Position numbers and translations under genes: made by a program | The notes under the pieces: model-generated | What the model was told of the DNA's origin: nothing | Database searches by the model: none | Seen by the model: only the letters and a program-made list of their open reading frames with translations | DNA from: a virus | Strand: one strand, 5' to 3' | DNA: 28,366 nt | Virus record (IMG/VR): IMGVR_UViG_3300027736_000191 | Span: 1 to 28,366 of that record | Shown here: positions 1,114 to 27,921 of the stretch, in pieces | Position numbering within the stretch: the first letter of the stretch is position 1 | How the letters are laid out: each line of letters opens with the position of its first letter

Positions 1114-1320
1114 ATGATTTACAAATTTGAAAACTATGTTATACCTTCCATTATGGAGGTTGAATTAACTGTAACAGATGAAATTGCAAATGACTTTAAA
1201 GTAGTTCTTTTTGCAATTCAAGAGCAAGGGTTTGAGGAATGGCATTCAATTGAATTATCAAAAGACGATGTTTTTAAATTGATAGGCGCTCTTCATTTAC
1301 TACATAAAGAAATGAAATAA
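1114..1320 (+). CDS. Hypothetical protein (68 aa)
   Basis: I start at ATG 1114 ([20 protein letters not shown]). An upstream TTG in frame at 1090 would lie in the U-tract of the structured RNA and is less likely. The product is acidic, about 68 residues, probably mixed alpha/beta, ending in a helix ([15 protein letters not shown]). It overlaps the replication initiator gene by one base (TAATG), so the two are probably co-translated and transcribed downstream of the RNA element at 1002-1091. No family is recognised. Confidence 0.6.
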
Positions 1321-1982
1321 TGAACGGATATAATTTAATTCGGGATTGGTATAATTTTAAATTTGAAAATCCCTCCAGAGTCAAAGCAAGTCATTCAGAT
1401 TTCTATTGTTATTTAATTGACCGCTGGAATAGATTAGGACAAAAAAACGAATTCGGTTTGCCTACATCTGTAACAATGGAAGCATTAGGAATTGGATCAT
1501 ATAACAGTTATAAAAAAACGTTACAAGATTTAATTGATTTCGGCTTCATAAAATTAGTTACTGAAAGCAAAAATCAATATCAAAGCAAAGTTATTGCCCT
1601 ATCAAAAAATGACAAAGCAAGTGATAAAGCACTAGACGAAGCACATAACAAAGCACCTGACAAAGCAACTGATACCATATATAAACAAATGAACAATGAA
1701 ACAAATGAACAATATCGCTCATTCGCTCATTTGTCTATTTCAATAAATGAATTTCATAAATTAGAACTGGAATATTATAAAAAAGATATTGATTGTATTT
1801 TAGATGACATTCAGAATTACGCAAAAAATAAAACTTATAGAAGTTTATATTTGACGGCTAAAAAATGGTTGAGGGATATTCCTAAAAAAGGTCAGGAAGT
1901 GAAACCACACAAAACTGGTGATGACATTCTTTATGAAAATGTAATGCGTCAAATGGAAATTGCTAAAAATTATCAACCATGA
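1320..1982 (+). CDS. Putative replication initiator (winged-helix, phage replisome organiser-like)
   Basis: A 220-residue protein. Residues 1-80 look like a winged-helix DNA-binding domain: [13 protein letters not shown] at 6-18, then [20 protein letters not shown] at 47-66 as the likely HTH, and [10 protein letters not shown] at 71-80 as the wing. Residues 98-117 are five tetrads of the type D-K-A-x. The C-terminal half (about 140-190) contains [20 protein letters not shown] and a helix that could be a DnaD-like or helicase-loading region. The gene is followed with a 4-base overlap by a DnaB/RepA-like ATPase, as expected for a phage initiator/helicase pair. The repeats inside the gene (1611-1734) suggest the origin lies here. 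The initiator role is inference from domain type and context. Confidence 0.6.
1611..1670 (+). repeat. Five tandem 12-base repeats inside the initiator gene
   Basis: Five contiguous 12-base units start at 1611, 1623, 1635, 1647 and 1659 with the core GAYAAAGCA (variants GACGAAGCA and AACAAAGCA) followed by three variable bases. In protein they encode D-K-A-x tetrads. The first nine bases of each unit are more conserved than the rest. They resemble iterons bound by replication initiators, such as those in lambda gene O, but a purely structural protein repeat would give the same picture. Confidence 0.8.
1683..1734 (+). repeat. Direct and inverted repeats forming a candidate origin core
   Basis: AAACAAATGAACAAT occurs perfectly twice at 1683-1697 and 1699-1713, a 16-base period. 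CGCTCATT is repeated in tandem at 1716-1723 and 1724-1731. ACAAATGA (1685-1692 and 1701-1708) is inverted as TCATTTGT at 1727-1734. The block follows the five 12-base repeats directly and lies in AT-rich DNA. Together they look like a phage replication origin within the initiator gene. Confidence 0.75.
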
Positions 1983-2896
1983 TTTTAAAGAACGGACACG
2001 CAACTCAGTATTTAAATGATTTTAAAGAGGGTAAAATTACGCAAGGTTTGGGAATTGGTTGCGTATTGGATGACTATATTCGATTTAAAACTAAACAACT
2101 AAATATTGTTTTGGGACATGACAACGTTGGAAAAACATATTTCATGGAGTGGTATTTTCTTTGCCTAGCAATAAATCAAGGTTTGAAAATTACTATTTGG
2201 GCTGGAGAGAATTCAAGCGGTCAAATAATGCGTGATTTAATTCAGATGTATACGGGGAAAAGATTTTCAGATTTAAGTTATTCGGAACTCCGATCCGCCG
2301 AAGTAACTTTAGAGTATTATTTTCAATTTGTAGACAACTCAAAAATGTACAAGCCAAAAGATATGCTGGATATTATAGATTCAACAGAATGTAATATTGG
2401 ATTTATTGATCCATTTACAGGGTTGGATAGGGGAATGACACACTCAGATAATTACGAATTCTTAAATAATACTAGACAATTTTGCAATCAAACGGGAAAA
2501 ACTATTTATATTTCGACACACCCTACAAGTGAAAGTGGGCGTACATCAATGATTTATCCTTTGGACCATGATTGGGCGGGACATTTAAAGCCACCATTAA
2601 AAGCACATGTTGAGGGTGGTAAACCGTTTTTAAATCGAAGTGATGATATGCTAGTTATTCACCGATTAGTAAAACACCCGACAATGAAATATCAAACAAT
2701 GATTGACATTGAAAAAATTAAGGATAGGGATACTGGCGGTAAACAAACAGATTTAAATAACCCTTTAATGTTTGATTATAATTTTGGATTAGGATTTAAA
2801 ATTGGGGGGGTTGATCCTTTGCAAAGACCGAATAAAAAACAAACTGAATTAAGAAATTTTAGCGAATCAATTAACGAACAAAATTTACCATTTTAA
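1979..2896 (+). CDS. DnaB/RepA-like replicative helicase or loader ATPase (RecA fold)
   Basis: 305 residues with a RecA-type ATPase core. The Walker A motif GHDNVGKT is at 46-53 after the beta-strand [20 protein letters not shown] at 74-88 matches the exposed E-containing strand of AAA_25/DnaB-like proteins. Walker B is NIGFIDPF at 139-146, and YISTHP at 177-182 is a sensor-like strand. No separate DnaB N-terminal domain or C-terminal zinc site is seen, so it is shorter than full DnaB (about 450 aa) and closer to RepA-type hexameric helicases. It overlaps the initiator gene by 4 bases. The role as the phage replicative helicase or its loader is inferred from family and position. Confidence 0.75.
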
Positions 2897-3318: not shown

Positions 3319-3851
3319 TGAAATGTAAAGCATGTAATACAACATTCATTCCGAAGTATTTTAATCAAAAAATGTGCTTGGACAATGACGAATGTTTAAG
3401 AGCGTTTGCAGATTACGCCAAAATTGCAAAAGAAAAAACCGAACGAAAGGAATGGACCGAAAGAAAATCAAAGTTAAAAAAACAACTTTTAACAGTTCAG
3501 GACTATTTGAAGATAGCCCAGCAAGTTTTTAACGCATACATTCGAAAACGGGATCAAGGCAAAAATTGTATGGCTTGTGGTAAAAAAATTAACGGGGTTG
3601 TTCACGCATCCCATTACTACAACGCAAATAATCATTGGAACGTACGATTTGACGAAAATAACGTTTTTAGTTGCTGTTATAGTTGTAATGTTGCAAATTC
3701 AGGAAACCTTATTGAGTATGGTATTAATCTAGAAAAAGAAATTGGATTGGATGAGTTTGTTATATTAAGAGAAAAAGCATATAAAACACGCAAATTTACA
3801 CGAGATGAACTAAAAGAAATAATTGAAAAATATAAAAAAATAAGTAAATAA
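3318..3851 (+). CDS. ninG: NinG-like recombination protein (Rap, HNH-like zinc fold)
   Basis: 177 residues matching the NinG/Rap layout: an N-terminal zinc-finger-like segment (C3, C6, C20, C26), a basic helical linker (about 36-75), then NCMACGKK at 83-90, VHASHYYNANNHWNVRFDEN at 95-114 and FSCCYSCN at 117-124. The CxxC pairs 84/87 and 120/123 with the H/N-rich stretch between form a treble-clef HNH-type fold. In lambda this protein (orf/ninG, Rap) resolves branched recombination intermediates and assists Red recombination. Its company here, an ERF annealing protein and a 5'-3' exonuclease, supports a phage recombination role. The stop codon is followed immediately by the promoter of the second structured RNA. 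Confidence 0.8.
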   Translation: MKCKACNTTFIPKYFNQKMCLDNDECLRAFADYAKIAKEKTERKEWTERKSKLKKQLLTVQDYLKIAQQVFNAYIRKRDQGKNCMACGKKINGVVHASHYYNANNHWNVRFDENNVFSCCYSCNVANSGNLIEYGINLEKEIGLDEFVILREKAYKTRKFTRDELKEIIEKYKKISK

Positions 3852-3855
3852 TTTG

Positions 3856-3863
3856 TATATTTA
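3856..3863 (+). promoter_or_regulatory. Promoter-like box (TATATTTA) before RNA copy 2
   Basis: TATATTTA at 3856-3863 lies within the same ATTTGTATATTTRCA context as the box at 988-995, differing from TAnnTTTG only in the last base. It starts 5 bases after the ninG stop. A transcription start about 7 bases downstream would fall at 3870-3871, the first base of stem A of the RNA. Confidence 0.45.
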
Positions 3864-3869
3864 CATTGT

Positions 3870-27754: not shown

Positions 27755-27779
27755 AATAAATCAAAATATTTTCTATCTT

Positions 27780-27811
27780 AAAGCCCTTATAAACAAAGGG
27801 TTTTATTTTTT
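27780..27811 (+). terminator. Intrinsic terminator after the lysis operon
   Basis: AAAGCCCTT (27780-27788) pairs with AAGGGTTT (27796-27803), one bulged G, 7-base loop, followed by TATTTTTTA. It lies 26 bases after the lysin stop and ends the late operon. Confidence 0.75.
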
Positions 27812-27848
27812 ATTCACATTTTTTTGTACTTTTTTTGTTAATAATTGT

Positions 27849-27877
27849 GTTATATTAAAAAAAAGTTTATATATTTG
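27849..27877 (+). promoter_or_regulatory. Promoter with TATATTTG box and shared upstream sequence
   Basis: TATATTTG at 27870-27877, with ATTG at 27844-27847 as a possible -33 element 22 bases upstream. The stretch GTTATATTAAAAAAAAGTT at 27849-27867 matches 4433-4451 with one substitution. It should drive the 27919 operon, with a leader of about 35 bases. Confidence 0.65.
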
Positions 27878-27897
27878 CATATATCAATTAACGAAAA

Positions 27898-27921
27898 ACA
27901 AATTTAAAACTAAAAATTATG
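27898..27921 (+). repeat. A-rich translation leader, copy 1 (second copy 28225-28248)
   Basis: 24 bases ending in the ATG of 27919 match 28225-28248 with a single difference (ACAAATTTAAAACT then AAAAATTATG against TAAAATTATG). The duplicated leader immediately before two start codons suggests a translation-initiation element in place of a Shine-Dalgarno site. Confidence 0.65.

Follow-up and report, generated by a model that had tools for sequence, protein, structure and literature searches.

The gene at positions 1320-1982 of the window (the whole stretch of DNA analysed here, an entire IMG/VR record of 28,366 bp that is possibly a fragment) carries in its middle a series of short direct repeats, and it raises the question of whether these have been kept for the peptide they encode or for the DNA itself. 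A sequence-only reading of the window had proposed them as part of a candidate replication origin located inside the putative initiator gene, in the manner of lambda. The comparison with relatives leads us to consider it very probable that 1611-1714 holds an iteron array and a duplex-unwinding element, which together would make up a theta-type origin embedded in the gene of its own initiator.

The repeat array in the window

Five head-to-tail 12-bp units (GAYAAAGCAnnn) occupy 1611-1670 on the plus strand, corresponding to codons 98-117 of the 220-aa gene. They start at 1611, 1623, 1635, 1647 and 1659, and read GACAAAGCAAGT (1611-1622), GATAAAGCACTA (1623-1634), GACGAAGCACAT (1635-1646), AACAAAGCACCT (1647-1658) and GACAAAGCAACT (1659-1670). 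All five units listed in the sequence-only reading are present, but the exact GAYAAAGCA core is confined to three of them (1611, 1623 and 1659), the cores at 1635 (GACGAAGCA) and 1647 (AACAAAGCA) having one mismatch each. The word AAAGCA lies at CDS positions 295, 307, 331 and 343 in units 1, 2, 4 and 5, the first of these being kept across the family; unit 3 is degenerate in the window genome, and two relatives (L011 and L013) carry AAAGCA there. The repeats are genuine and non-random: at lag 12 the array gives 38 matches out of 52, the maximum among 300 dinucleotide shuffles being 34 over periods 8 to 24, it is the best lag-12 stretch of the window, and four copies of GAYAAAGCA are found where 0.64 would be expected. 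Two other AAAGCA copies, at 1564 and 1582, are out of phase with the array and were left uncounted as units; conserved S-K-N-Q codons underlie one of them, and only a couple of close relatives share the other.

Relatives of the gene

Using tblastn, homologues were found in the Polaribacter phages Danklef_1 to 5, and they also occur in Lutibacter maritimus, Flavobacterium algicola, a Christiangramia MAG and other genomes, with prophages in Lutibacter and Flavobacterium; under even sampling, a few Flavobacteriaceae genomes contained homologues. Judging from these genomes and phages, the hosts are mainly Bacteroidota. A scan of genome contigs gave no match with the window protein as query and seven loci with the protein of a relative. 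Scans of viral contigs yielded 4 and then 196 relatives, and the best 80 of the 196, together with Danklef_1 and the window, provided 67 distinct genes. The non-redundant set consists of 31 relatives with less than 80% DNA identity; as it was thinned by identity, its counts are given without tree correction.

The repeated word is conserved independently of the reading frame

Across the 67 distinct genes, copies of AAAGCA follow one another at 11- or 12-bp intervals, in the equivalent part of the gene. Many relatives have it at CDS positions 295, 307, 319, 330, 342, 353 and 365, with spacings of 12, 12, 11, 12, 11 and 12, and along such a single gene the word slides from frame 0 to frame 2 and then to frame 1, the array coding for DKALDKAL, then IKHTTKQ and then SESTxQSIDSI. 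The number of units varies from 4 to 9 in the family and the bases between the words vary as well; the isolated phage Danklef_1 has nine copies spanning the three frames. Among the 31 non-redundant relatives we counted 188 copies (96, 46 and 46 in frames 0, 2 and 1, respectively), all three frames being used in 24 of the 31, and 138 of the 157 successive spacings were of 11 bp (39) or 12 bp (99).

These counts were compared with a synonymous null in which the same peptides were recoded at the codon usage of the family (2000 draws). The tested stretch of the 31 relatives contained 187 copies of AAAGCA, against a mean of 48 and a maximum of 70 under recoding. Outside frame 0 there were 46 copies against 4.9 expected in frame 1 and 46 against 6.4 in frame 2, and all 66 genes together had 383 copies against 92. 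Alanine is encoded by GCA in 109 of 113 cases within the array and in 98 of 237 elsewhere. Since the word and its helical-turn spacing are kept even though the frame differs, selection preserves the DNA itself and not the protein; an accident passed on by descent alone is unlikely to have come through the changes of frame. The persistence of a DNA word through three frames of a single gene makes this an unusually clean case of a DNA function overriding protein coding.

The window's own branch could nevertheless be read in another way, namely that a D-K-A-x linker was selected for its amino acids and that the DNA repetition is a mere consequence. The units of the window and of its close relatives are all in frame 0, at an exact 12-bp spacing, and encode D-K-A-x, and the synonymous signal of the window by itself is modest (4 AAAGCA copies against 1.5 expected). 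For this reason the window alone would not settle whether DNA or protein is selected, and the strong case comes from the relatives, most of which have AAAGCA coding for K-A, then K-H or K-Q, then E-S or Q-S within one gene. The array codons are moreover frozen, and the peptide is predicted to be disordered. The frame changes together with this codon freezing led us to reject the protein repeat, to which we attach next to no probability.

The freezing is apparent in the eight members of the window's subfamily, where codon identity, scored at identical residues, is 57.5% for residues 1-87, 87% for 99-119, 99.5% for 119-130 and 59% for 131-200. Thr119 is encoded by ACC in 8 of 8 members, a codon that makes up about 11% of the Thr codons across the loci. 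The subfamily comparison also reveals a conserved 5′ flank of the array (ATTGCCCTATCAAAAAAT, 1593-1610, plus strand, codons 92-97), in which GCC CTA TCA is invariant in 8 of 8 members; this flank is not retained in the distant Danklef copy. The sequence-only reading had named two outcomes that would speak against it, a skew switch elsewhere and homologues that keep the D-K-A-x tetrads while their synonymous codons vary freely; for the codons the opposite was found, which favours selection on the DNA. The frame-independent word and the frozen codons across the relatives thus support, at the sequence level, the proposal of an origin inside the initiator gene. Of the two possibilities it left for the D-K-A-x tetrads, a by-product of iterons or the reverse, the first holds, because the codons are frozen and the DNA word and its spacing have outlasted the tetrads, which are partly lost in most relatives.

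In 344 kb of loci, 62 arrays lie inside the initiator gene and 0 elsewhere. A protein-blind scan with a two-unit DNA pattern returned at least 120 loci; among the 80 of those that were examined, every array of at least four units that was assignable to an ORF belonged to the initiator gene family; one further array, at the end of a contig, could not be assigned.

An unstable A-rich tract adjoins the array

Past the last unit the consensus of the family continues with AAAGCAtTgnTAGTATAnAtAAACaA, after which the sequence is A-rich. The corresponding tract of the window is a candidate unwinding element at 1668-1714 (plus strand), supported by duplex stability, the synonymous null and codon identity, and it contains TACCATATATAAACAAATGAACAATGAAACAAATGAACAAT, the counterpart of the family consensus TAGTATARATAAACAA. 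Synonymous recoding gives an expectation of 1.7 copies for TAGTATA and of 55 for AACAA (null maximum 70), whereas the observed copies, spread over all frames, number 23 and 106, respectively. According to nearest-neighbour energies averaged over 30 loci, the array itself is comparatively stable and the 40 bp directly 3′ of it are the least stable nearby, the minimum starting 0-20 bp past the last iteron. These 40 bp have a median stability rank of 3.3% within their own locus. Such an unstable tract beside the array looks like the duplex-unwinding element found next to iterons.

In the window this tract is only moderately unusual within its own genome. The array had been described as lying in AT-rich DNA, a relative term in a window of about 66% AT: the 66 bp after the array are unexceptional in composition (31% of stretches equal or exceed their AT content), although the 40 bp directly after it are among the least stable 6.4%. 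The perfect 15-base direct repeat reported there, AAACAAATGAACAAT, is exact at 1683-1697 and 1699-1713 and is part of the A-rich tract, its exact sequence being absent from most of the family. The CGCTCATT pair (1716-1731) and the inverted TCATTTGT (1727-1734) are likewise present as described, but they were rejected as conserved origin parts, since they are restricted to the window and to L007 and L008, its two nearest relatives, and the tandem is therefore probably incidental; L014 and L015 have a similar C-terminal peptide, yet neither element is kept in them.

The initiator protein and its neighbours

The product of the gene (1320-1982, plus strand) was assigned as an initiator from its PHROG match, predicted fold and structural matches. 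It is laid out as a winged-helix N-terminal domain (aa 1-94), a linker (about aa 97-135) encoded by the iterons and the A-rich tract, and a variable C-terminal domain. The AF2 pLDDT is about 84-92 for aa 1-80 and below 50 for 113-125 and 128-152, and the iteron-encoded stretch is accordingly predicted to be a disordered linker. The window protein matches phrog_18020 ('replication initiation O-like') at 5e-4, as do 27 of the 61 family members tested, and the PHROGs matched by members also include those for replication initiation, replisome organizer, DnaD-like loader and primosomal proteins. Neither the window protein (E 0.1) nor the 61 members (E 0.01) match the lambda O Pfam family.

The best PDB matches of the N-domain (Z 9.4-10.3) are replication-initiator N-terminal domains, 4pql, 5kbj, 4pt7 and 4pta, one of the four being a complex with DNA; they are RepA_N proteins, as the entry titles also indicate. 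These Z values are above those of the other winged-helix entries, by a margin that is modest given that winged helices often reach a Z of about 8, and the best Foldseek E for the N-domain was 0.014. Replication proteins were also among the matches to predicted viral structures. No sequence match to the RepA_N Pfam family was obtained with the window protein or the members, and a profile run against PDB sequences gave no match at all. The RepA_N likeness is one of shared fold and is no proof of descent.

In blastp comparisons all N-terminal pairs were related (1953 of 1953) and only 245 C-terminal pairs were, with 752 pairs having at least 75% N-terminal identity and no detectable C-terminal similarity. 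The C-termini are therefore mosaic and exchangeable between family members. Because the junction lies just past the array, the latter could be seen as a recombination joint, a shared linker for swapping C-terminal modules whose likeness derives from exchange and not from function. Exchange would however not keep a 6-bp word at 11/12-bp spacing amid varying bases in 4 to 9 units, and we regard this explanation as very improbable, use as a joint being in any case compatible with an origin function.

Directly next to the initiator gene, and overlapping its stop, is a gene for a RecA-like replicative helicase (1979-2896, plus strand; phrog_18375 DNA primase/helicase, 3e-20, and phrog_19 DnaB-like, 8e-9). 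It would presumably be the helicase that is loaded at the origin, and none of the genes was recognised as coding for a loader. The array might also be a binding site for the same or another protein with a regulatory role, such as autorepression or a transcription roadblock, instead of a replicative one. Repressors are common among winged-helix proteins, the Danklef homologue is annotated as a 'transcriptional regulator', and a roadblock would be feasible at a site about 290 bp into the gene. We nonetheless find this unlikely, considering that the family profiles are those of replication initiation and primosomal proteins, that the unstable A-rich element is conserved in a fixed place beside the array, that a helicase gene adjoins and that lambda, SPP1 and pSK41 have origins in the form of in-gene arrays of like layout. 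The array could also serve autoregulation in addition to its origin role.

Upstream of the initiator gene, the window encodes at 325-738 a protein of 137 aa whose sole domain is a helix-turn-helix like that of DnaA domain IV (PF08299, E 1e-5, under the curated cutoff). In L002, L003 and Danklef_1 the initiator is preceded by a similar stand-alone DnaA-IV gene that scores above the cutoff, and a motif search found one in 11 of the 53 relatives having enough upstream sequence. The stand-alone DnaA-IV protein might be a helper at the origin.

Comparison with known origins

Origins inside initiator genes are already known. In lambdoid phages, iterons in the middle of gene O are followed by an AT-rich tract, with 4 units in lambda and 6 in Stx phages, where the two extra iterons add 13 residues and, as here, iterons are not multiples of three (PMC7466680). 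The mid-gene position, the adjoining AT-rich tract and the variable unit number are thus shared with lambda, whereas the units here are 11-12 bp and head-to-tail (the extra Stx iterons being of about 19-20 bp each), a helicase gene follows instead of a recognised loader, and the match to the lambda O Pfam family is absent. In SPP1 oriL, direct repeats and an AT-rich DUE lie inside the initiator gene 38 (PMC6316719), a phage arrangement much like the present one, but SPP1 also possesses oriR as a second origin and encodes its loader separately, as gp39; the window, itself maybe a fragment, was found to contain neither. The rep gene of pSK41 has its Rep boxes in a central position, and the origin-coded middle is a linker that is dispensable as a peptide (PMC5703833). 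Here the N-domain fold is similar, and the array, at codons 98-117 of 220 and coding for a predicted linker, would fit the layout of a central origin, in Bacteroidota phages and not Firmicutes plasmids, with different units and unit number and a C-terminus that is unrelated as far as tested.

A further comparison is with Danklef1_43 of Danklef_1 (L006 5001-5891; MT732458.1 29039-29929), a homologue with 41% identity over residues 1-154, whose nine AAAGCA copies in three frames and A-rich flank are alike, but which has more units than the window and a different C-terminus. As an initiator homologue with nine iterons, it is probably wrongly annotated as a transcriptional regulator. No origin is mentioned in those parts of the Danklef phage description that we consulted (PMC8776804), and no published account of this origin was found in our searches, most of the subscription literature being outside their reach. 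As far as these searches went, the novelty lies in the family itself, in its compact array of 11/12-bp spacing and in the clear demonstration across three frames.

Proposed mechanism

The direct repeats selected as DNA within the initiator CDS and the adjoining AT-rich element, easily melted on the family average, are sequence evidence, and from known systems of the same plan we infer how binding, melting and loading would proceed. Protomers would line up through their winged-helix N-domains on the AAAGCA units of 11-12 bp, about one per helical turn; the resulting nucleoprotein array would strain and melt the 3′ A-rich tract, and the C-domain, tethered by the origin-encoded disordered linker, would recruit the helicase of the neighbouring gene or a host loader. 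On the DNA side, this scheme draws on the selection acting on units and flank, the fixed unit position and spacing, and the instability of the flank; on the protein side, it draws on the predicted winged-helix fold and linker and on the exchangeable C-terminus. Given the fixed 11/12-bp spacing, the one-protomer-per-turn model is directly testable. A bolder version, which we put forward as a tentative conjecture and think rather doubtful as a whole, is that the initiator forms a continuous filament with one 11-12 bp unit per turn, and that the N-domain, iterons and unwinding element constitute a transferable cassette with interchangeable helicase-recruiting C-termini, often assisted by the DnaA-IV protein encoded just upstream.

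The origin reading provides a base-level prediction for a large group of Bacteroidota phages and prophages whose replication is little studied, and it accounts for a peculiar protein repeat that would otherwise be annotated as a linker motif. In-gene iterons can also be found in unannotated viral contigs by a simple test combining codon freezing and frame independence.

Other signals in the window and in distant proteins

The GC skew, proposed earlier as a check, showed no switch in the window and was positive throughout; since the main genes are all on the plus strand it is uninformative, and it neither supports nor contradicts the origin. Near the array there were no DnaA boxes, no Rfam match was obtained, and scanning for promoters and terminators gave results no better than chance. 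Distant winged-helix proteins of Flavobacteriaceae genomes (L217-L221) are without AAAGCA arrays. In L218 (1138-1821, minus strand), the linker region has 12-bp GAGGTTAGGGAT-like units followed by an A-rich tract, which hints at a shared layout built on a different iteron word, and these units, as well as the GTAAACAAGCGG-like units of L220, may be other iterons; no relatives of L218 were found with which to compare its units.

The intergenic region at 27755-27918 contains an exact DnaA-box-like TTATTCACA at 27810 and one-mismatch matches at 27787 and 27836, which precede a Bacteroidota-type promoter-like element, TATATTTGCA; across the window the number of such DnaA-box-like matches is not above chance overall. 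Lastly, TTTGTATATTTGCA at 984-997 and TTTGTATATTTACA at about 3851-3864 resemble the Bacteroidota promoter -7 element, and both are located ahead of gene groups.
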